Assembly: GCF_014042015.1 (NCBI RefSeq)
Contig: NZ_CP059493.1
Coordinates: 2,790,001 to 2,854,000 of the forward strand
Source: Actinotalea sp. JY-7876
GTDB lineage: Bacteria; Actinomycetota; Actinomycetes; Actinomycetales; Cellulomonadaceae
Direction of reading: 5' to 3'
Length of the DNA: 64,000 nt
Of the stretch, positions 7,175 to 18,452 are shown in pieces. Both the position numbers and the translations under genes were made by a program. The notes beneath the pieces are model-generated. The model did no database searches. It worked only from the letters and a program-made list of their open reading frames with translations, and had not been told where the DNA came from. Positions within the stretch are counted from its first letter, which is position 1; each line of letters begins with the position of its first letter.

Positions 7175-10100
7175 TCACCAGGGCCACCACGACGGCGGCC
7201 ACCAGCCGCCGATCCAGCCCCAGAACCACTGCCACCAGCCGCCGCCCGGGGTGCCCGGACCGTCGCCGTCCTCGCCGTCGACGAGGACGGCGACGGTCCG
7301 GGCCGGCACGGTGACGGTGCCGCTGGCCTCGTCCCACGTGGTCTGACGCACGACGTCGTCGCTGCCCTCGGCGAGCACCGGCGACAGCTCGTAGTCCGCG
7401 CCCGCGAGGTCCGCGAGCGCGATCACGGCGGGCTCGTCGGACGCGTTGAACACCGTCAGCAGGCCGTCCAGCTCGGGGTCGACGTCCCGGCCGACCGTGT
7501 CGTCCACGTGCATCGCGATGACGCCGGGAGCGGCGTCGGGGCCGCTGCCGGGGAAGGTCACCTTCTCCCGGATGAGCTCCGCGTCGCCGAGCCGGAACAG
7601 CTCGGTCGAGAACCGCAGCCGCAGGAGGTCCTGCGCCTGGTCCCCCGCCGCCTCGATGTCCGCGGGCGTGGGCGCGAGCGCCGGGTCCGCCAGCAGCGGC
7701 GCCTGGTAGGGCCACTTCGCCTCGTTGTCCGCCGCGGGCGGCAGGCCGCGCCCGAAGGTCGTCCCCTGCCCGGACCAGTCGATCTCGTTGAACCAGTCGC
7801 CCGAGTCGTAGCTGTTGCGGTCCAGGGACTTGCTGCGCAGCAGGTCCGTGCCGGCGTGCCAGAACGACGGCGTCTGCGACAGGGCGGTCGTCGCGAGGGA
7901 CAGCGTGTTCATGCGCACGCGGTCCGCCATCGGCGTGTCCTGGGGCAGCTTGAGCGTCAGCGAGTCGAAGAGCGTCTCGTTGTCGTGCGCGTCGACGTAG
8001 GTGACGACCTCCTCGGGTGACGTCGCGTAGCCCGCGGGCTGCCCGTTGTAGTCGAGCTCGGCGCCGGTGCGCACGGTGCCGTCGCTCGCGAGGAACGCGA
8101 AGTCCTCGAGGTTGCCCGCGAGGCCGAGCCGGACGAGGTCGGCCTGGTGCTGCAGGCGCGCGCGCTGCTCGTCCTGCGAGCCGTTGACCGGGGCGCCGTT
8201 CGGGTCGGTGAACGCCCCGCTGCCGAAGCCCTGGACGCGCGGGTCCTCGTCGAACGGTCCCCCGCCGCGCACGGCGTCGCGCAGCCGGTCGCTGAAGGTC
8301 CCGATGCCCGTGCCGTCGAGCTGGCCCTGCGTCGCCTGGGTGAACAGACGGTTGTCGGCGACCTCGCCGAAGTTCCAGCCCTCGCCGTAGAGGTAGACGG
8401 CCGAGCCGTCGACGCCGTCGCGGCGCGGCGTGAGCGCGTCGAGCGCCTCGCGCACGGCCTGCATGGTCTGGACGCTGTGGTGCCCCATGAGGTCGAAGCG
8501 GAAGCCGTCCACCTTGTAGTCGCGGGCCCACGTCACCACGGAGTCGACCATGAGCTTCTCGGTCATGGCGTGCTCGGTGGCCAGGTTCTGGCAGCACGTC
8601 GACGTCTCCACCTGCCCGGTCGCGTCCAGCCGGTGGTAGTAGCCGGGCACCACGCGGTCCAGCACGGACTTCGGGTCCTGGCCGCTGGCGGCGGTGTGGT
8701 TGAACACCTGGTCCAGGACGACCTGGAGGCCGTCGTCGTGCAGGGCGCCGACCATGGTCCGGAACTCGGCGACCCGGGCACCGCCGTGGGCGTCGCGCGC
8801 GTAGGACCCCTCCGGGGCGCTGAAGTGCAGCGGGTCGTAGCCCCAGTTGTAGCCGTCGCCGGCGCGGATCTGCTCGATGCAGGCCTGCTGCTCGGGCGAG
8901 TCCGGCGGGAAGGACGCGAGGTCGCACGGCGGCGTCGCCTGGGCGCCGCGGTCCTCCTCGATCGTCGCGATGTCGAACGTCGGCAGCAGGTGGACCGTCG
9001 TCAGCCCCGCGTCGGCCAGCTCCCGCAGGTGCTGCCGGCCCGCCGTGCCCTCCTGCGCGAAGGCCCCGTAGGTGCCCCGGAGCTCCGCGGGGACGGTCTC
9101 GTCGCTGATCGAGAAGTCGCGCACGTGCAGCTCGTAGATCGTCTGGTCGACGGGCTCGACCTCGGGCTGGTCGGCCGTGCGCCACAGCCGCGGCTGGTGG
9201 TCGCGGTCGTCCAGGTCCACCAGCACCGAGTGCGTCGAGTTGAGCGTCAGCGCGACCGAGTACGGGTCCGTGACGCGGTTGACCTCGACCGCGTCCGTGC
9301 TCGGGGCGTAGACGGTCACCTCGTAGAGGTAGGCCGCGTCGGCCCAGGCCTTCTGGCCGCGCACCGTCCACGTGCCGTCGGCCCCGCGGTCCATCGCGAC
9401 CCGCTGCGGCTCGGCGTCGAGGTCGAGCCGGCCGCGGCGGTCCGGGGTCCACAGCAGGAGGTCCACGTCCTGTGCCGTCGGTGCCCACAGGGCCAGGTCG
9501 GGCCGGCCGGACCGCCACGTCGCGCCCAGGGCGCGGTCGGCCGCGTCCTGCGCGAAGAGGTCGTCCACCACGCCCGGGACCTGGACGCCCGTGATCGCCG
9601 TCGCCGCGCCGGCGGCGTCGTACTGGCCGACGAGCAGCTCACCGCGCAGCAGCGCCTCGACCTCCGCCCGCGGGGCGTCCACGCTCAGCGCGAGGAAGCC
9701 CTCGAGGTGCGGGAACGCGGCGAGCTGCTCGGCCGTGAGGCCGCCCTCGTCGAGCGCGAGCTCGATCGCCTCGCCGCCCTGGACGGCGTCGTCGACCACC
9801 TCGAGCGACGCGTCGGGCGCGTGGTGCAGGCGCCACGTCTGCGCCGACGCGTCCGTCCCCGGCAGGAGCGCCGCGGGCCACGCGATGGTGCCGGCGTCGA
9901 GCCAGTGCGCCTGCGCGGTGCCGACGCCGGCCAGCGGCGGGTCGACGACGCCGACCGTCAGGACGTGCGTGGCGAGGTCGTACGTGAAGGTCACGCGCTC
10001 GTCGGCGGACGCCGTGAAGGCGATGTTCGCGCCGCCCGGCGCGCCGCCGGCCCCGTAGTTCTCGTCCCACGTCAGGCCGTGCGCGACCTTGACCTCGTAC

Positions 10101-13051
10101 GTGCCCGCGGGCAGCGGACGCGAGGTCCAGGTGAAGGTGCCGTCGCCGTCCGGGTCCTGCAGGGAGGTCACGACGCAGTCCGGCGACCAGTCCGCCGGGC
10201 AGCCCGCCTCGCTCTGGAAGGAGCCGGGCAGCGTCAGCAGCGGGCCCTGGGCGCTCGACGTGAACCACTTCGTGGCGTCGTCGTAGACGAACGTGACCTG
10301 CTGCGTCGCGGGCACCGAGATCGGCACGTTGTCGCCGCCCCGCACGCCGCCCGCGCCGTAGTTCTCGTCCCAGGTGCCGTTGATCGCGATCTTGTACTGG
10401 AAGTCGCCCGCGGGGACCTCGAACGTGCCGGAGTACACGCCCGCGCCGCGGTGCGTCAGGGCGACGGCGGTGCAGTCGGGCTGCCAGTCGGCCGAGCAGC
10501 CGAGCTCGCTGTCCAGGTCGCCCGCGACCGTGACGAGCAGGTCCTCGCGACCCTCGGCGGGCTGCTCGTCCGGCACGGCGCCGTCGACGGCGACGCCCAC
10601 GGACGCGAAGGACGAGGCCGCCACGCGGTCGCCCGCGGCGTCGACGCTCACGGCGCGGTACTCGACGAGCGTCCCGCGCGCCAGGCCGGCGGTGTCGTGG
10701 AACACGCGCGGCGTGGTGTCCTCCGCCGTGCCGAGCGGGGTCCAGTCCTCGTCGCCGACCACGCGGTACGCGAAGGAGGTCTCCGCCCAGACGTCGGCGA
10801 CCTCGGCCGCGACGGGGGCCACCCCGGTGACGGCCGCGCCCGGGGAGGGGACGGCGACCGTCAGGTCGTCCGCCCCCGCAGCGACCGGGCCGTCGGCCAC
10901 CAGGACCACGGCGCCGAACGCCGGGACCGTGAGCTCGACGGTGCCGTCGTCGGCCGCGGTGACGGCCGCGTGGTCGTCCGGCGATCCGGCGAGGGCGGCG
11001 AAGCCGGCGCCCGGCGTCAGCGTGTCGACCGTGACGGTCGCGGGCACCGCGGCGTTGTTCACGGCGACCAGGTGCTCGACCCTCTCCTCGCGGTCGACGC
11101 GCGAGAACGCGTAGACGGAGCCCTCGCCCGGACCCGTGACGGGCCGCTCGAGCTGCGCGCCGGTCGCGAGCGCCGGCGTCGCGCTGCGGGCCGACGCCAG
11201 GCCCGCGATGTGCTCGTAGAGCGGGGCGCCCGTGTCGTAGCGGTCGACGGAACCCAGGGCCTGCCCCGTCAGCAGCTCCTGGTCGGTGTACTCGGGCGTC
11301 TGCGACGCGAAGAGGGTCTGCCGCGCGCTCTTGTCCCCGCCGAGGCCGGCGAAGCCCTGCTCGTCGCCGTAGTAGACGACGGGCTGGCCGCGCGTCAGGT
11401 ACATGAGGCTGTGCGCGAGCTCGGAGCGCGCCAGGCCGTCGCCCTGCGGGGCGACGAAGTAGCCGATGCGGCCCATGTCGTGGTTGCCGAGGAACGTGGG
11501 CAGGGCGGTGGAGCTCGTCGTCGGCGTCGTGTACATGTCGTCGGAGGCGAACAGCTGCCGCAGGGTCTGCGGACCCGTGCCGCGGGCATACGTCGACGCG
11601 GCGGCCTGGAAGGTGAAGTCCAGCACCGAGCTCATGTCGGTGGTGCGGACGTACGGCGAGAGCTTGGCCGCGTCGGCGTCGTACACCTCGCCGAACATGA
11701 AGAAGTCCGGCTTGCCCTGGGCGTGGGCGTAGTCGAGGACCTGCGTGGTCCACTGCTCCCAGAACTCGGGGTTCACGTGCTTGACCGTGTCGATCCGGAA
11801 GCCGTCGATGCCGAGGTCCACCCAGTCCTGGTAGACCTCGACGAAGCCCTCGACGACCGTCGGGTGCTCGGTCATGAGGTCGTCCAGGCCGTCGAAGTCG
11901 CCGTACGTGACGGACTCCCCCGCCCAGGTCGAGTTGCCGCGGTTGTGGTAGAGCGTCGGGTCGTTGAGCCACGCGGGGACCTTGAGGTCGGCGTCGGCCG
12001 GGTCCACGACGGGCGTGTAGGGGAACGACGTGGCCGGGTCGAGCTCGGGGAACGACCCCGTGCCGGCGTGGTCGGCGGGGTCGAACGGCGTGCCGGCGGC
12101 GTCGGTGTACGGCCGCGTCGCCTGGTCCACGTAGGAGTACTGCCCCTCGGCGTAGTCGACGACGTCGGCCGTGTGGTTCGTGATGATGTCGAAGTAGACC
12201 TTGATGCCCCGCGCGTGGGCGTCGGCGATGAGGGCCTCGAGCTCCGCGTTCGTCCCGAGGTGCGGGTCGATCTGCGTGAAGTCCGTGATCCAGTACCCGT
12301 GGTAGCCGGCCGAGGCGTCGGCGCCGGTGCCCTGGACCGGCCGGTTGAGGAAGGACGGCGTGAGCCAGATCGCCGTCGTGCCGAGCCCCTCGATGTAGTC
12401 GAGCTGCGCGCGCAGGCCGGCGAGGTCACCACCCTGGTAGAAGCCCTTGTCGGTCGGGTCGAACCCCGTGGCGAGGCGGTCGCCGGTGAGCCCTCCCGTG
12501 TCGTTGCCCGGGTCCCCGTTGGCGAACCGGTCCGTCATGACGAAGTAGAACTGCTCGGCCGAGCCCGGCTGGCGCACCGGGTCGGCGACGAGCGCGGCGT
12601 CGGCGTCCGAGGCCGCGCCTCCCAGGTCCAGCGGGACCAGGCCGGTGCGGTGCGTGGCGTCGTCGTACGTCACGCGCAGCCGCGTCGGTCCGGCGACGAC
12701 GAGCGGGGTGTTGTCGCCGCCGCCGTCGGCGCCGTACGCCTCGTCCCAGGCGTCGTCGAGCGCGACCTTGTACTGCCAGGCTCCCGCCGGGACCTCGAAC
12801 TCCGCGGCGTAGCGGCCCGGTTCGCCCGTGGGCGCGAGCTCCGTCGCGGCGCAGTCCGGCGCCCAGTCGGCCGCGCAGCCGAGCTCGCTCTGCAGGTCGC
12901 CGACCAGGGCGACCGAGCGGTCCGCGGCGGTCGCGGGCGCCGAGCCCGGACCGGGCGGCACGACGGTCGCCGTGAGGGCGAGCGCGAGGACGGAGCCGAT
13001 CCGCGCCGCCGAGCGCGCGCGGGTCGACGAGGCCGTGAGGGCCGAGGTCAT
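7175..13051 (-). CDS. Secreted two-domain amylase-pullulanase with three X25 modules
   Basis: The protein has 1958 residues from ATG 13051 (AAGGGAG upstream). After a signal peptide (about 1-43) the order is: X25-type starch-binding-like module (47-140); GH13 alpha-amylase catalytic domain with Asp421 (GFRIDTVKH), Glu455 (MFGEV) and His524-Asp525 (NHD); a beta-sandwich region; two more X25 modules (842-935 and 942-1035); then a pullulanase-type GH13 domain with YNWGYDP (1401-1407), Asp1520 (VDGFRFD), Glu1557 (YGEGW) and His1689-Asp1690. Both catalytic sets look complete, so one secreted polypeptide should cut alpha-1,4 and alpha-1,6 bonds of starch or pullulan. The last 20 residues contain 10 tryptophans. 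A perfect 16-bp palindrome lies 25 bp upstream of the start. Confidence 0.9.
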   Translation of the reverse strand: MTSALTASSTRARSAARIGSVLALALTATVVPPGPGSAPATAADRSVALVGDLQSELGCAADWAPDCAATELAPTGEPGRYAAEFEVPAGAWQYKVALDDAWDEAYGADGGGDNTPLVVAGPTRLRVTYDDATHRTGLVPLDLGGAASDADAALVADPVRQPGSAEQFYFVMTDRFANGDPGNDTGGLTGDRLATGFDPTDKGFYQGGDLAGLRAQLDYIEGLGTTAIWLTPSFLNRPVQGTGADASAGYHGYWITDFTQIDPHLGTNAELEALIADAHARGIKVYFDIITNHTADVVDYAEGQYSYVDQATRPYTDAAGTPFDPADHAGTGSFPELDPATSFPYTPVVDPADADLKVPAWLNDPTLYHNRGNSTWAGESVTYGDFDGLDDLMTEHPTVVEGFVEVYQDWVDLGIDGFRIDTVKHVNPEFWEQWTTQVLDYAHAQGKPDFFMFGEVYDADAAKLSPYVRTTDMSSVLDFTFQAAASTYARGTGPQTLRQLFASDDMYTTPTTSSTALPTFLGNHDMGRIGYFVAPQGDGLARSELAHSLMYLTRGQPVVYYGDEQGFAGLGGDKSARQTLFASQTPEYTDQELLTGQALGSVDRYDTGAPLYEHIAGLASARSATPALATGAQLERPVTGPGEGSVYAFSRVDREERVEHLVAVNNAAVPATVTVDTLTPGAGFAALAGSPDDHAAVTAADDGTVELTVPAFGAVVLVADGPVAAGADDLTVAVPSPGAAVTGVAPVAAEVADVWAETSFAYRVVGDEDWTPLGTAEDTTPRVFHDTAGLARGTLVEYRAVSVDAAGDRVAASSFASVGVAVDGAVPDEQPAEGREDLLVTVAGDLDSELGCSADWQPDCTAVALTHRGAGVYSGTFEVPAGDFQYKIAINGTWDENYGAGGVRGGDNVPISVPATQQVTFVYDDATKWFTSSAQGPLLTLPGSFQSEAGCPADWSPDCVVTSLQDPDGDGTFTWTSRPLPAGTYEVKVAHGLTWDENYGAGGAPGGANIAFTASADERVTFTYDLATHVLTVGVVDPPLAGVGTAQAHWLDAGTIAWPAALLPGTDASAQTWRLHHAPDASLEVVDDAVQGGEAIELALDEGGLTAEQLAAFPHLEGFLALSVDAPRAEVEALLRGELLVGQYDAAGAATAITGVQVPGVVDDLFAQDAADRALGATWRSGRPDLALWAPTAQDVDLLLWTPDRRGRLDLDAEPQRVAMDRGADGTWTVRGQKAWADAAYLYEVTVYAPSTDAVEVNRVTDPYSVALTLNSTHSVLVDLDDRDHQPRLWRTADQPEVEPVDQTIYELHVRDFSISDETVPAELRGTYGAFAQEGTAGRQHLRELADAGLTTVHLLPTFDIATIEEDRGAQATPPCDLASFPPDSPEQQACIEQIRAGDGYNWGYDPLHFSAPEGSYARDAHGGARVAEFRTMVGALHDDGLQVVLDQVFNHTAASGQDPKSVLDRVVPGYYHRLDATGQVETSTCCQNLATEHAMTEKLMVDSVVTWARDYKVDGFRFDLMGHHSVQTMQAVREALDALTPRRDGVDGSAVYLYGEGWNFGEVADNRLFTQATQGQLDGTGIGTFSDRLRDAVRGGGPFDEDPRVQGFGSGAFTDPNGAPVNGSQDEQRARLQHQADLVRLGLAGNLEDFAFLASDGTVRTGAELDYNGQPAGYATSPEEVVTYVDAHDNETLFDSLTLKLPQDTPMADRVRMNTLSLATTALSQTPSFWHAGTDLLRSKSLDRNSYDSGDWFNEIDWSGQGTTFGRGLPPAADNEAKWPYQAPLLADPALAPTPADIEAAGDQAQDLLRLRFSTELFRLGDAELIREKVTFPGSGPDAAPGVIAMHVDDTVGRDVDPELDGLLTVFNASDEPAVIALADLAGADYELSPVLAEGSDDVVRQTTWDEASGTVTVPARTVAVLVDGEDGDGPGTPGGGWWQWFWGWIGGWWPPSWWPW
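7178..7237 (-). other. Trp-rich C-terminal tail of the amylase-pullulanase
   Basis: The 20 codons before the stop encode ten Trp plus Gly, Pro, Phe, Ile, Ser and Gln, following an acidic/Gly/Pro linker (GEDGDGPGTPGGG). TGG codons are spread evenly, so this is not a simple nucleotide repeat. It could be an aromatic surface for glucan or envelope binding; this is speculation. Confidence 0.7.
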
Positions 13052-13075
13052 GGGGACTCCCTTGTCACCACCGAT

Positions 13076-13091
13076 GTTCACCCGGGTGAAC
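13076..13091. promoter_or_regulatory. Perfect 16-bp palindrome, probable operator of the amylase-pullulanase gene
   Basis: GTTCACCCGGGTGAAC is a perfect inverted repeat in the 5' untranslated region. It would lie about 10-25 nt downstream of the start site of the promoter at 13109-13137, a position suited to repression by roadblock. No regulator gene is adjacent. Confidence 0.55.
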
Positions 13092-13274: not shown

Positions 13275-13790
13275 CTAGCCGCCGTAGCTCGCCGTGAGGG
13301 CGACGAGGAACGCGACGCAGGCGCCCGCGGCGACGATGGCCAGGATCGCCGCCCCCGCCAGCACGCCGATCGCGTACCAGCGCGTCCGTTCCACCACGAC
13401 CCCGGCGATCACCGCACCGACCGCCACCATCCCGACGATCGTCGAGACGATCTGCTCGATCCCGCCGCTGTGCGTGACCCCGCGGAGCAGGCCCCCGAGT
13501 CCACCGGCCACCACGAAGCAGGCCACGAGCGCGGGGATCGCGAGGGCCGCGCCGATCCAGAACTTGCGCTTGTTGGACGACGGCGTGCGCACCGGCGCGT
13601 AGGGGTCGGCGGCGCCCTGACCGTAAGGCTGCTGACCGTAGGGCTGCTGACCGTAGGGCTGCTGACCGTAGGGCTGCTGACCGTAGGGCTGTGGCTGGCC
13701 GTACGGCGGCTGCTGACCGTACGGCGGCTGGCCGTCCGGCTGCGCGCCCGGCTGCTGCGGGTCGTCCTGCGGGGGCGGCTGCTGCGACAC
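13275..13790 (-). CDS. Membrane protein with Gln/Pro/Tyr/Gly repeats
   Basis: This 171-residue protein has a disordered N-terminal half dominated by PYGQQ repeats (about residues 22-60), followed by a basic stretch (SSNKRKFW) and three hydrophobic segments (about 77-100, 112-134 and 142-166). Such Pro/Gln/Tyr-rich tails on small membrane proteins are common in actinobacteria; the function is unknown. The start is GTG 13790 with GAGGAG upstream. The repeat DNA (15-bp units at 13621-13690) is nearly identical between copies, unlike the rest of the gene, and could vary in number between strains. Confidence 0.7.
13621..13694 (-). repeat. 15-bp tandem repeat coding for QQPYG
   Basis: Four full copies of CCGTAGGGCTGCTGA (the first with one mismatch) start at 13621, 13636, 13651 and 13666, followed by a partial fifth. 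They are in frame with the membrane protein and encode its PYGQQ repeats. Confidence 0.85.
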
Positions 13791-13815: not shown

Positions 13816-14112
13816 TCAGGTCAGGGACAGGACGATCGCCGTGGCGGCAGCCCCGGCGAGGAGGGTGAGGTAGAGCAGGACGAGGCGCGTGTCGCCGAGC
13901 TTGCAGCGCGAGCGGAGCAGGCCGGCGCGCCGGGCCCGGGCGTACCCGACGATCGCCAGCACCGCGAAGCCGAGCAGCGCCCACGGCCCGAGCACCCAGC
14001 CCAGCAGCGCCACCGTCGCGAAGACGCACAGCCGCAGCGGGTCCGGCGGCGCCGCGGTGCCGGAGCCCGCGACCGCCTCGTGCGGCGGCCGGACCTGCCG
14101 GGGGTCGCTCAC
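13816..14112 (-). CDS. Small membrane protein of the Lgt-like/radical SAM cassette
   Basis: This 98-residue protein starts at GTG 14112 and overlaps the radical SAM stop codon by 4 bp (GTGA), so it is translationally coupled to it. The sequence has a polar N-terminus, then hydrophobic segments at about residues 29-52 and 76-97 separated by a basic Cys-containing loop ([19 protein letters not shown]). The family was not recognised. Its position as third gene of a coupled cassette with a membrane-embedded Lgt-like enzyme and a radical SAM enzyme suggests an accessory or anchoring role, which is inference. Confidence 0.65.
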
Positions 14113-15770
14113 CGGGGCACCATCGGGAGCGAGACCCGGGACGGGCGCTCGGGCGGTGTACCGCGCGTCGCACGGCCCGACCCAGCCGCCGTCGCGGCGG
14201 CGAGGGGCACGCCCGCGGCGCTCGAGATCCGGCTCCGCGACAGCGGCGCCCACGCCTGGACCGCGCAGAACGGCGCGCACTGGTGCGCCCGCGACTCCTC
14301 CTCGACGGTCGCGACGTGGACGCAGCACTGCGTGAGCCGCTCCTCGATCATCGTGTTCATGTCCATGAACGGCTTGATCGTCACGCGCAGGACGCGCTCC
14401 CCGAGGAGGCGCCGCATCCGGTCCTGCTGACCCGGCAGGCGTGAGGCGGCGAGGGTCGCGAGGGTGCTGATGCCGAGGTCGCACGCGGTGCAGATGTCGC
14501 GCCAGATGGTCGCCATCGACGGGTGGGAGAGCGACGACTGCTCCGAGAGGAGGTCGAGCAGGGACCCCTTGACGGCCGCACGCAGCTGGGCCGGGATGGC
14601 GTCGTCGGCGATGCGGTTCGCCAGCACGTCCGGCTCGAGGTCGAGCCACTCCTTGAGCCGCTGCGGACCGATGAGCGCGACGAGCGAGCGCCACGTGCCC
14701 GCGTCGTCCCGGAGCAGGTAGCCGACCGAGCAGCAGTGCGGGTGCGAGCACGGCAGGGCCGTCATGTCGCGCCACGTCACCACGCCGTCGGTCTGCGGCC
14801 CCAACCGCGCGAGCACCCCCGTGTGCGTGAGGCGGTCCATCGGGTCCAGGCCCGCGCTGCGACCGGAGCCGAAGACGGGCTGGATCGTCACGCCGCCGAC
14901 GAAGGGCGTCGCCATGCCGCGCCGGACGACGTCGCCGATCTCGTCGTCGTTGACGCCCAGCGCGGCGGTCATCGTCAGCGTGGTGAACACCCCGGCCTCG
15001 GACAGCCGCTCGAGCGCCCGGTCCTTGAACCGGCGGATGTCGGCGCCGCGGTGGTGCGTCGAGGCCTGCGCCGTGACGCCGTCGAACTGCAGGTACACCT
15101 CCACGCGCTCGCGGTGCCGGCGCAGCGTGGCGAGCAGGGCGTCGTCACGCGCGATGAGGAGCCCGTTCGTGTTGAGCAGCACGCGCACCACGGGCCGCGT
15201 CGCGACCGCGTCGAGCAGCTCGGTGAGCCACGGGTAGAGGGTGGGTTCGCCACCGCTGAGCATGAGGACGTCGATGCGGCCGTTCTCGCGCGCCAGGCGC
15301 GTGTCGATCGACGCCAGCACCTCCTCGAGCGGCGCGACCGACGCCAGCGCGGGCGCCGACGCGGCGAAGCAGGTCGGGCACTTGAGGTTGCAGTGGTCGA
15401 GCAGGTCCTCGAGCAGGATGCAGGTGTGCTGCGTCTGCATCTCGGGCAGCCCGTGTGCGTAGGCGGCGGGCACGGGCGCGAAGTTGCCGACGACGTCGGG
15501 CGTGTGCGCCTTGGTCGGCGCCGTCCACTGCTCGAGGTAGCTGAGGATCTCGGGCGACTCGTCGTAGAGGGTCCTGACCAGGCCGTGCGTCGCGCAGCCG
15601 CGCTCGAGCCAGATGCGCTCGTCGCGCTCGACCAGCCACCCGGACAGCCGCGGGACCTCGGCGAGCGGGCGGTCCGGTCGCTCCTCGTGGCACAGCGGGC
15701 AGAACGCGTTGACGTAGCGGTGGATGCGCCCCCCGCGCAGTGGCATGCCGGGTCCGGTGCGTGGGCTCAC
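14109..15770 (-). CDS. Multi-cluster radical SAM enzyme, MJ0619/Tes-like
   Basis: This protein has 553 residues from GTG 15770, which overlaps the Lgt-like stop (GTGA). The N-terminus has a rubredoxin-like Cys set (FCPLC at 24-27, GCATHG at 59). The SAM cluster motif is CNLKCPTC (Cys127, Cys131, Cys134), followed by LSGGEPTLYP and LLNTNG. Further conserved-looking Cys groups are CSHPHCC (341-347), CTAC (427-430), and a C-terminal KPFMDMNTMIEERLTQCC...PFC (466-502). This arrangement of a zinc/rubredoxin-like head, radical SAM core and extra clusters resembles MJ0619, the methanogen enzyme studied as a tetraether lipid synthase and previously annotated as a pterin methyltransferase. A role in lipid C-C bond formation or methylation here is inference supported by the membrane-enzyme neighbour. 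Confidence 0.82.
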   Translation of the reverse strand: MSPRTGPGMPLRGGRIHRYVNAFCPLCHEERPDRPLAEVPRLSGWLVERDERIWLERGCATHGLVRTLYDESPEILSYLEQWTAPTKAHTPDVVGNFAPVPAAYAHGLPEMQTQHTCILLEDLLDHCNLKCPTCFAASAPALASVAPLEEVLASIDTRLARENGRIDVLMLSGGEPTLYPWLTELLDAVATRPVVRVLLNTNGLLIARDDALLATLRRHRERVEVYLQFDGVTAQASTHHRGADIRRFKDRALERLSEAGVFTTLTMTAALGVNDDEIGDVVRRGMATPFVGGVTIQPVFGSGRSAGLDPMDRLTHTGVLARLGPQTDGVVTWRDMTALPCSHPHCCSVGYLLRDDAGTWRSLVALIGPQRLKEWLDLEPDVLANRIADDAIPAQLRAAVKGSLLDLLSEQSSLSHPSMATIWRDICTACDLGISTLATLAASRLPGQQDRMRRLLGERVLRVTIKPFMDMNTMIEERLTQCCVHVATVEEESRAHQCAPFCAVQAWAPLSRSRISSAAGVPLAAATAAGSGRATRGTPPERPSRVSLPMVPR

Positions 15771-16543
15771 GCGGTGGCCTCCTCGAGCTCTGGCCGGCGC
15801 GCGCCGGACTCCGTGCGGGCGTGGACGACGATGCGGGCGAGGACGAGCGGCACGGTCACCGCGAGGAAGAGCTGTCCGCGCGACAGGCCCGCCCACACCT
15901 CCTCGTTGCCCCGGACGAACTCGACGAGGAAGCGGAAGATCCCGTAGGCGGCGACGTACCAGACGAAGGTCTCCCCCGGCGGCAGCGGCTTGTGCCGCAG
16001 CCAGAACCACAGGACGGCGAAGGCCGCCGCGTGGAACGCGATCTCGTAGGCGAAGGACGGGTGCAGCGGGACGCCGGCCGGGGCGCCCAGGCGCGCCGCT
16101 GCCTCGCGGTCGAGCACCACGCCCCAGGCGCCGCGGGTCGGCTCCCCGGGCAGCTCGGTGAGCAGGCAGCCGACGCGACCGACGGCCATGCCCCCGGCCA
16201 CCGCCGGCGCGAAGAGATCACCCGTCCGGACGCGGTAACCGCTGAGCCGCTTGGCGACGTGCACACCGAGCCACGCGCCGACGAGGCCACCGAGCACGCT
16301 CCGGTTGCCGTGCACCCACTGCTCGACCAGGGACGCGTTCTCGCGCAGGTCCACGTGCTGGAGCCAGGTGCCCAGCCGCATGAGCAGCGCCCCACCGACG
16401 AGGCCGCCCGTGACCACCACCAGCAGGCGGTCGTCCGTGTGCCCGCGCCGTCGCGCCTCCACCACGAGGATCAGCAGCGCGACACCGACGCCCAGCGCGA
16501 CGAACAGCTCGTGCGTGGGCACGGGCCCGATCATCGTCAGCAT
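15767..16543 (-). CDS. Lgt-like (prolipoprotein diacylglyceryl transferase family) membrane protein
   Basis: This 258-residue protein has about seven hydrophobic segments and several Lgt hallmarks: GNRSVLGGLVGAW (79-91), GRVGC (122-126), HPSFAYE (161-167) and RFLVEFVRG (204-212). However, the family signature G-R-x-G-N-F-x-N-x-E is replaced by GRVGCLLTELPGE, with Cys in place of the conserved Asn, so it is probably not the canonical lipoprotein enzyme. It is the first gene of a coupled cassette with the MJ0619-like radical SAM enzyme. It may transfer or bind a phospholipid glycerol unit; the true substrate is unknown. The start is ATG 16543, with ATG 16534 as an alternative. Confidence 0.78.
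   Translation of the reverse strand: MLTMIGPVPTHELFVALGVGVALLILVVEARRRGHTDDRLLVVVTGGLVGGALLMRLGTWLQHVDLRENASLVEQWVHGNRSVLGGLVGAWLGVHVAKRLSGYRVRTGDLFAPAVAGGMAVGRVGCLLTELPGEPTRGAWGVVLDREAAARLGAPAGVPLHPSFAYEIAFHAAAFAVLWFWLRHKPLPPGETFVWYVAAYGIFRFLVEFVRGNEEVWAGLSRGQLFLAVTVPLVLARIVVHARTESGARRPELEEATA

Positions 16544-16923: not shown

Positions 16924-18452
<1,529 letters not shown>

Follow-up and report, generated by a model that had tools for sequence, protein, structure and literature searches.

We identified a cassette of four genes on the minus strand of the window (the whole stretch of 64 000 nucleotides analysed here, from a one-contig genome of 3.55 Mb), which we read, with a probability of roughly 45 %, as a putative membrane-bound module for the radical modification of lipid acyl chains. 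The genes encode, in order, an Lgt-like membrane protein (15767..16543; 258 aa), a radical SAM protein of the Tes/TrsS group (rSAM; 14109..15770; 553 aa, GTG start), a small membrane protein with DPLRLC and SxCxLxDTR motifs and two invariant Cys (SMP; 13816..14112; 98 aa), and a protein with a Pro/Gln-rich N-terminus, membrane segments and a C-terminal G-A-C (TMA; 13275..13790; 171 aa). The names SMP and TMA were coined in the present analysis for the third and fourth genes. The initial annotation had described the first three genes as joined by two GTGA overlaps, and both were confirmed, between the Lgt-like stop and the rSAM start (15767..15770) and between the rSAM stop and the SMP start (14109..14112). 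These overlaps suggest translational coupling, while the stoichiometric production that had been deduced from them goes beyond what they show. The trio is thus present, but TMA, which begins 25 bp after the third gene, had been overlooked. Of 88 scored loci, 66 allow a 4-base overlap of rSAM with SMP; for the Lgt-like gene and rSAM, a 4-base overlap is possible in 25 of the 49 loci having the Lgt-like gene first. Adjoining the cassette is a gene for a 1968-aa protein (7175-13081), by eye of the alpha-amylase/pullulanase type with two such regions, and two genes upstream of the Lgt-like gene lies one for a small protein starting with MLSGCGG (16924-17364), by eye a lipoprotein. No account of this cassette was found in the published literature searched.

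The cassette is real, as seen from its conservation. The co-occurrence check on the Lgt-like gene and rSAM, proposed in the initial annotation, gave a clear answer: the identical 17 of 296 sampled genomes of the class carry both. The rSAM query matched 27 of these genomes, 17 closely (66–100 % identity) and 10 at 32–34 % identity, and the Lgt-like query at E 1e-25 returned the same 17 genomes as the close rSAM and no others. The chance of identical sets for independent draws is about 10^-27, a figure made too strong by shared descent. In all 16 close loci, the Lgt-like gene was adjacent to rSAM or one small gene away. Relatives of rSAM were encoded at 460 loci of one genome collection, which argues against chance; among the best 80 of these 460, which were examined, the Lgt-like gene accompanied rSAM in 79, the 80th being cut by a contig end, and SMP was present in 78. 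The Lgt-like gene was also found in 11 of 13 additional loci, which came from 12 genomes and extended to other classes of the phylum; the remaining two were contig ends. Gene order was reshuffled across loci, with the Lgt-like gene before rSAM in 49 scored loci and after SMP in 46, and linkage stayed intact. Pairwise distances of rSAM and the Lgt-like protein co-varied (r 0.91, 94 rows). The identical occurrence, the correlated distances and the linkage despite reshuffling support the reading of the cassette as one module.

The Lgt-like protein had been assigned to the prolipoprotein diacylglyceryl transferase family, which holds for the PF01790 family score and for the fold, but not for the lipoprotein enzyme itself: scores stayed below the NCBIfam equivalog cut-offs (best, 78.4 against 334; TIGR00544, 66.4 against 118.9), and N146 is missing. 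Counterparts of E. coli Lgt R143, E202, Y235, R239, E243 and R246 are retained, so that of the essential residues compared (R143, N146, Y235, R239, E243 and R246) all but N146 are kept. The N146 position, reported as needed in E. coli Lgt in the available part of PMC8689077, is occupied by Cys in 96 of 96 rows (Cys126 in the window). Since a second Lgt gene elsewhere in the same genome scores higher (221.5 against 108.1 bits), the cassette gene is a paralogue. The H103 position of Lgt is Leu in 94 of the 96 Lgt-like rows; this was discarded as an indication that the Lgt is dead or new, given that the canonical Lgt of the same genome has Trp at that position. Cys126 was likewise rejected as a cassette marker, because six Lgt relatives in actinobacterial loci (L169-L174) also have GRxGC, with Cys at the N146 position as in the cassette protein, and gave no rSAM match in the 5–9 kb fetched. 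These six, which mostly carry a GCCYG motif, are, judged by sequence, another Lgt branch without N146.

In rSAM, all the cysteine patterns noted at the outset were present: the CxxxCxxC core (C127, C131, C134), the rubredoxin-type C24xxC27...C59xxH62 and KPFMDMNTMIEERLTQCC...PFC. The proposed resemblance to MJ0619/Tes was upheld for the overall fold, which matches GDGT-MAS over the full length and far better than it does any other solved fold, but the Tes score fell below the curated cut-off and several ligands are replaced. Against Tes/GDGT-MAS (NCBIfam NF045702), rSAM scored 150.2 bits (cut-off, 450) and five other cassette rSAMs 139–157 bits; against TrsS (NCBIfam NF045646), the best-scoring named family, the values were 187.7 bits (cut-off, 490) and 185–206 bits. 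Over 108 rows, the cysteines of the radical SAM, rubredoxin and C-terminal clusters were invariant, and each of the rubredoxin ligands (C9, C12, C33, H36) was kept in all 108; together with the full-length fold match, this supports the module reading. In contrast to MJ0619, the ligands of the N-terminal cluster are lost, with no Cys at the positions of C73, C77 and C80 in any of the 108 rows and Gln (107 rows) or His (one row) at the His position (83), and extra cysteines are found (C341, C427, C430, C498). Met439 and Tyr459, both conserved in the archaeal enzymes, are replaced by Lys in all 108 rows (Lys466 in the window) and by Val (107) or Ala (one), respectively, which weighs against the module reading. 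A bacterial origin and linkage to an Lgt-like gene further set the cassette rSAM apart from MJ0619. Unlike the cassette rSAM, the TrsS/Tes-like rSAMs found in 10 of the 296 genomes of the class retain the N-terminal cluster and carry Gln at 439; all four of their loci that were inspected had a methyltransferase-like gene nearby instead of Lgt. Such rSAMs (L054-L057 and L028-L037; three tested) scored 306–327 bits for TrsS and 288–319 bits for Tes, below both cut-offs. An anti-phage role was rejected, the viperin matches being weak, partial and confined to the rSAM core.

A true bacterial tetraether or diabolic-acid synthase, which would build a membrane-spanning lipid by linking two iso-branched fatty acids tail to tail, would accord with the fold match to GDGT-MAS and with the proposal that bacterial Tes homologues make branched GDGTs (PMC8941075, in the part available). 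We nevertheless consider this improbable, given the score below the Tes cut-off and the replacement of Met439, Tyr459 and the N-terminal cluster; it would also leave the need for an Lgt relative unexplained, and the accessible part of PMC11868695 states that no bacterial Tes homologue has been experimentally confirmed to give membrane-spanning lipids. With its auxiliary ligands changed, the cassette rSAM is unlikely to carry out the archaeal reaction itself. A role outside lipids, with rSAM acting in the maturation of a small molecule such as a cofactor or quinone and the Lgt-like protein serving only as a membrane scaffold, would fit a nearest named family, TrsS, whose function is not known, and the presence of Cys126 in place of a residue needed in E. 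coli Lgt (PMC8689077, available part). This also seems rather unlikely, since the Lgt head-group residues are invariant and the fold match to the lipid enzyme is far better than that to any listed cofactor maturase.

We then turn to the two small proteins, for neither of which was a Pfam assignment obtained (no family matched for the window SMP, none reaching the cut-off for TMA). SMP was found in 89 of 96 loci, with both Cys in all 89 rows found (30 aligned). Its absence from the other seven weakened the idea of SMP as obligatory substrate; a genome-wide search in seven genomes found no SMP, while two control genomes gave matches. All SMP-less loci inspected kept TMA (L044, L045, L047, L049, L050, L075, L137, L148 and L150). 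By motif scan, TMA was detected in 87 of 109 loci with the looser filter (72 of 109 in a first census with the strict filter) and in none of 109 on the opposite strand; several of the 22 misses visibly have one. The TMA families were too diverse for one alignment, and homology among all TMA genes would rest on motif and position.

These proteins raise the possibility of a lipidated peptide, in which the Lgt-like protein puts diacylglyceryl on the C-terminal Cys of TMA and rSAM changes the peptide or its lipid. Of the small membrane proteins next to the cassette, 69 of 74 carry G-x-C near the C-terminus, compared with 10 of 121 others in the same loci; a basic residue and one membrane span lie before the Cys, lipobox-like by eye; TMA persists where SMP is lost; and a G-x-C small protein follows the Bacteroidota rSAM as well. 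However, Pro (28 of 69) or some other non-lipobox residue often precedes the Cys, further residues remain after it (median, 9), TMA is poorly conserved outside the motif and is missed in 22 of 109 loci (some of these falsely), and rSAM is without a reported precursor-recognition domain. We thus regard this explanation as unlikely; a lipid–peptide product stays conceivable in view of the small cysteine-tipped protein.

The cassette looks horizontally transferred. At E 1e-100, rSAM gave no match in the 20 other genomes listed for the window's family and was found in 16 of 297 genomes of the order (the window's own included) and in 10 of 396 genomes of the phylum; its nearest relative was from Marmoricola (86 % identical). 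Named hosts include Nocardioides, Knoellia, Microbacterium, Leucobacter and Ornithinimicrobium, and are mostly aerobic. Copies also occur on plasmid records: an Lgt-like match was found in 4 of 10 such records with an rSAM of this kind (Persicobacter, two Mycobacterium and Nonomuraea), the Nonomuraea record (NZ_LT559118.1, L155; 11.85 Mb) being labelled a plasmid and probably a chromosome. On the Mycobacterium branderi plasmid, the Lgt-like gene is accompanied by two consecutive genes for G-x-C small membrane proteins (L154, 5158-6016), rSAM and a downstream IS200/IS605 element, with two DUF3558 genes upstream. Transfer is suggested by this patchy occurrence in family, order and phylum, by the variable gene order, by the plasmid copies and by the IS200/IS605 element. 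Lipoprotein genes, considered as partners on account of DUF3558, were not enriched (6 of 330 near and 7 of 650 far genes). Neither the Bacteroidota rSAM nor the Lgt-like alignment gave a match when viral_contigs was scanned.

On the plasmid of Persicobacter psychrovividus (Bacteroidota), there is an overlap between an Lgt-like gene (35.5 % identity, E 9e-28) and a gene for a Tes-like rSAM (26.7 % identity, E 4e-53), which supports the module reading. The latter overlaps by ATGA a gene for a 59-aa membrane protein ending in GTGICGSLLS. TMA queries gave no tblastn match in this locus, and the small gene may be called TMA-like from its position, overlap and motif. The Persicobacter rSAM (L156, 4394-6571) is the reverse of the actinobacterial family, in that the N-terminal cluster and Met439 are retained whereas three C-terminal cysteines are gone, C346, C482 and C502 being replaced by Ala, Ser and Glu, respectively. 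The chain parking site therefore cannot be the same in Actinomycetota and Bacteroidota, which counts against the module reading. As the cassette shows, the Tes fold has no fixed set of auxiliary iron-sulfur clusters.

What the analysis establishes is the fold, the metal ligands kept and lost, the genomic linkage and the spread of the cassette; the lipid substrate, the order of events and the product are inferred. In the parts available, PMC9433317 describes the MJ0619 fold as accommodating two phospholipids whose chains lie in a hydrophobic tunnel, and as forming a carbon–sulfur intermediate on the C-terminal cluster; this phospholipid-binding fold, combined with an Lgt fold whose head-group site is retained, points to a lipid acyl chain as the most likely target. 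The Lgt-like protein, which keeps the phosphatidylglycerol head-group residues of E. coli Lgt, would select and position such a phospholipid. The cytosolic rSAM would lie against the membrane, aided by the small membrane proteins, and take one acyl chain into its tunnel, where the 5'-deoxyadenosyl radical would abstract hydrogen from it. The chain would then be parked on the C-terminal iron-sulfur cluster, as in MJ0619, before a new bond to carbon or sulfur is formed. Three further points stand against the module reading: none of the searches brought up a lipid product for these bacteria, the cap region of rSAM (380-440) is of low confidence in the structure model, and Lgt is active on the outer face while rSAM is necessarily cytosolic, a distance that the model has to bridge.

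More tentatively, and as something possible rather than probable, the cassette could be a putative cross-phylum lipid-radical machine, in which an Lgt-type protein, a Tes-fold rSAM and a cysteine-tipped membrane protein would yield a new covalently modified membrane lipid or lipid–peptide (for example, carbon–sulfur linked), spread horizontally as a unit, its auxiliary clusters having been rewired one way in Actinomycetota and another in Bacteroidota. Relatives of tetraether synthase are reported from hundreds of bacterial genomes, none with a confirmed product in the available parts of PMC8941075 and PMC11868695. The cassette gives one branch of these bacterial Tes relatives fixed partners in cultivable, genetically ordinary actinobacteria, and so makes the question of its substrate directly testable. 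It may be a modifier of membrane lipids in soil bacteria.
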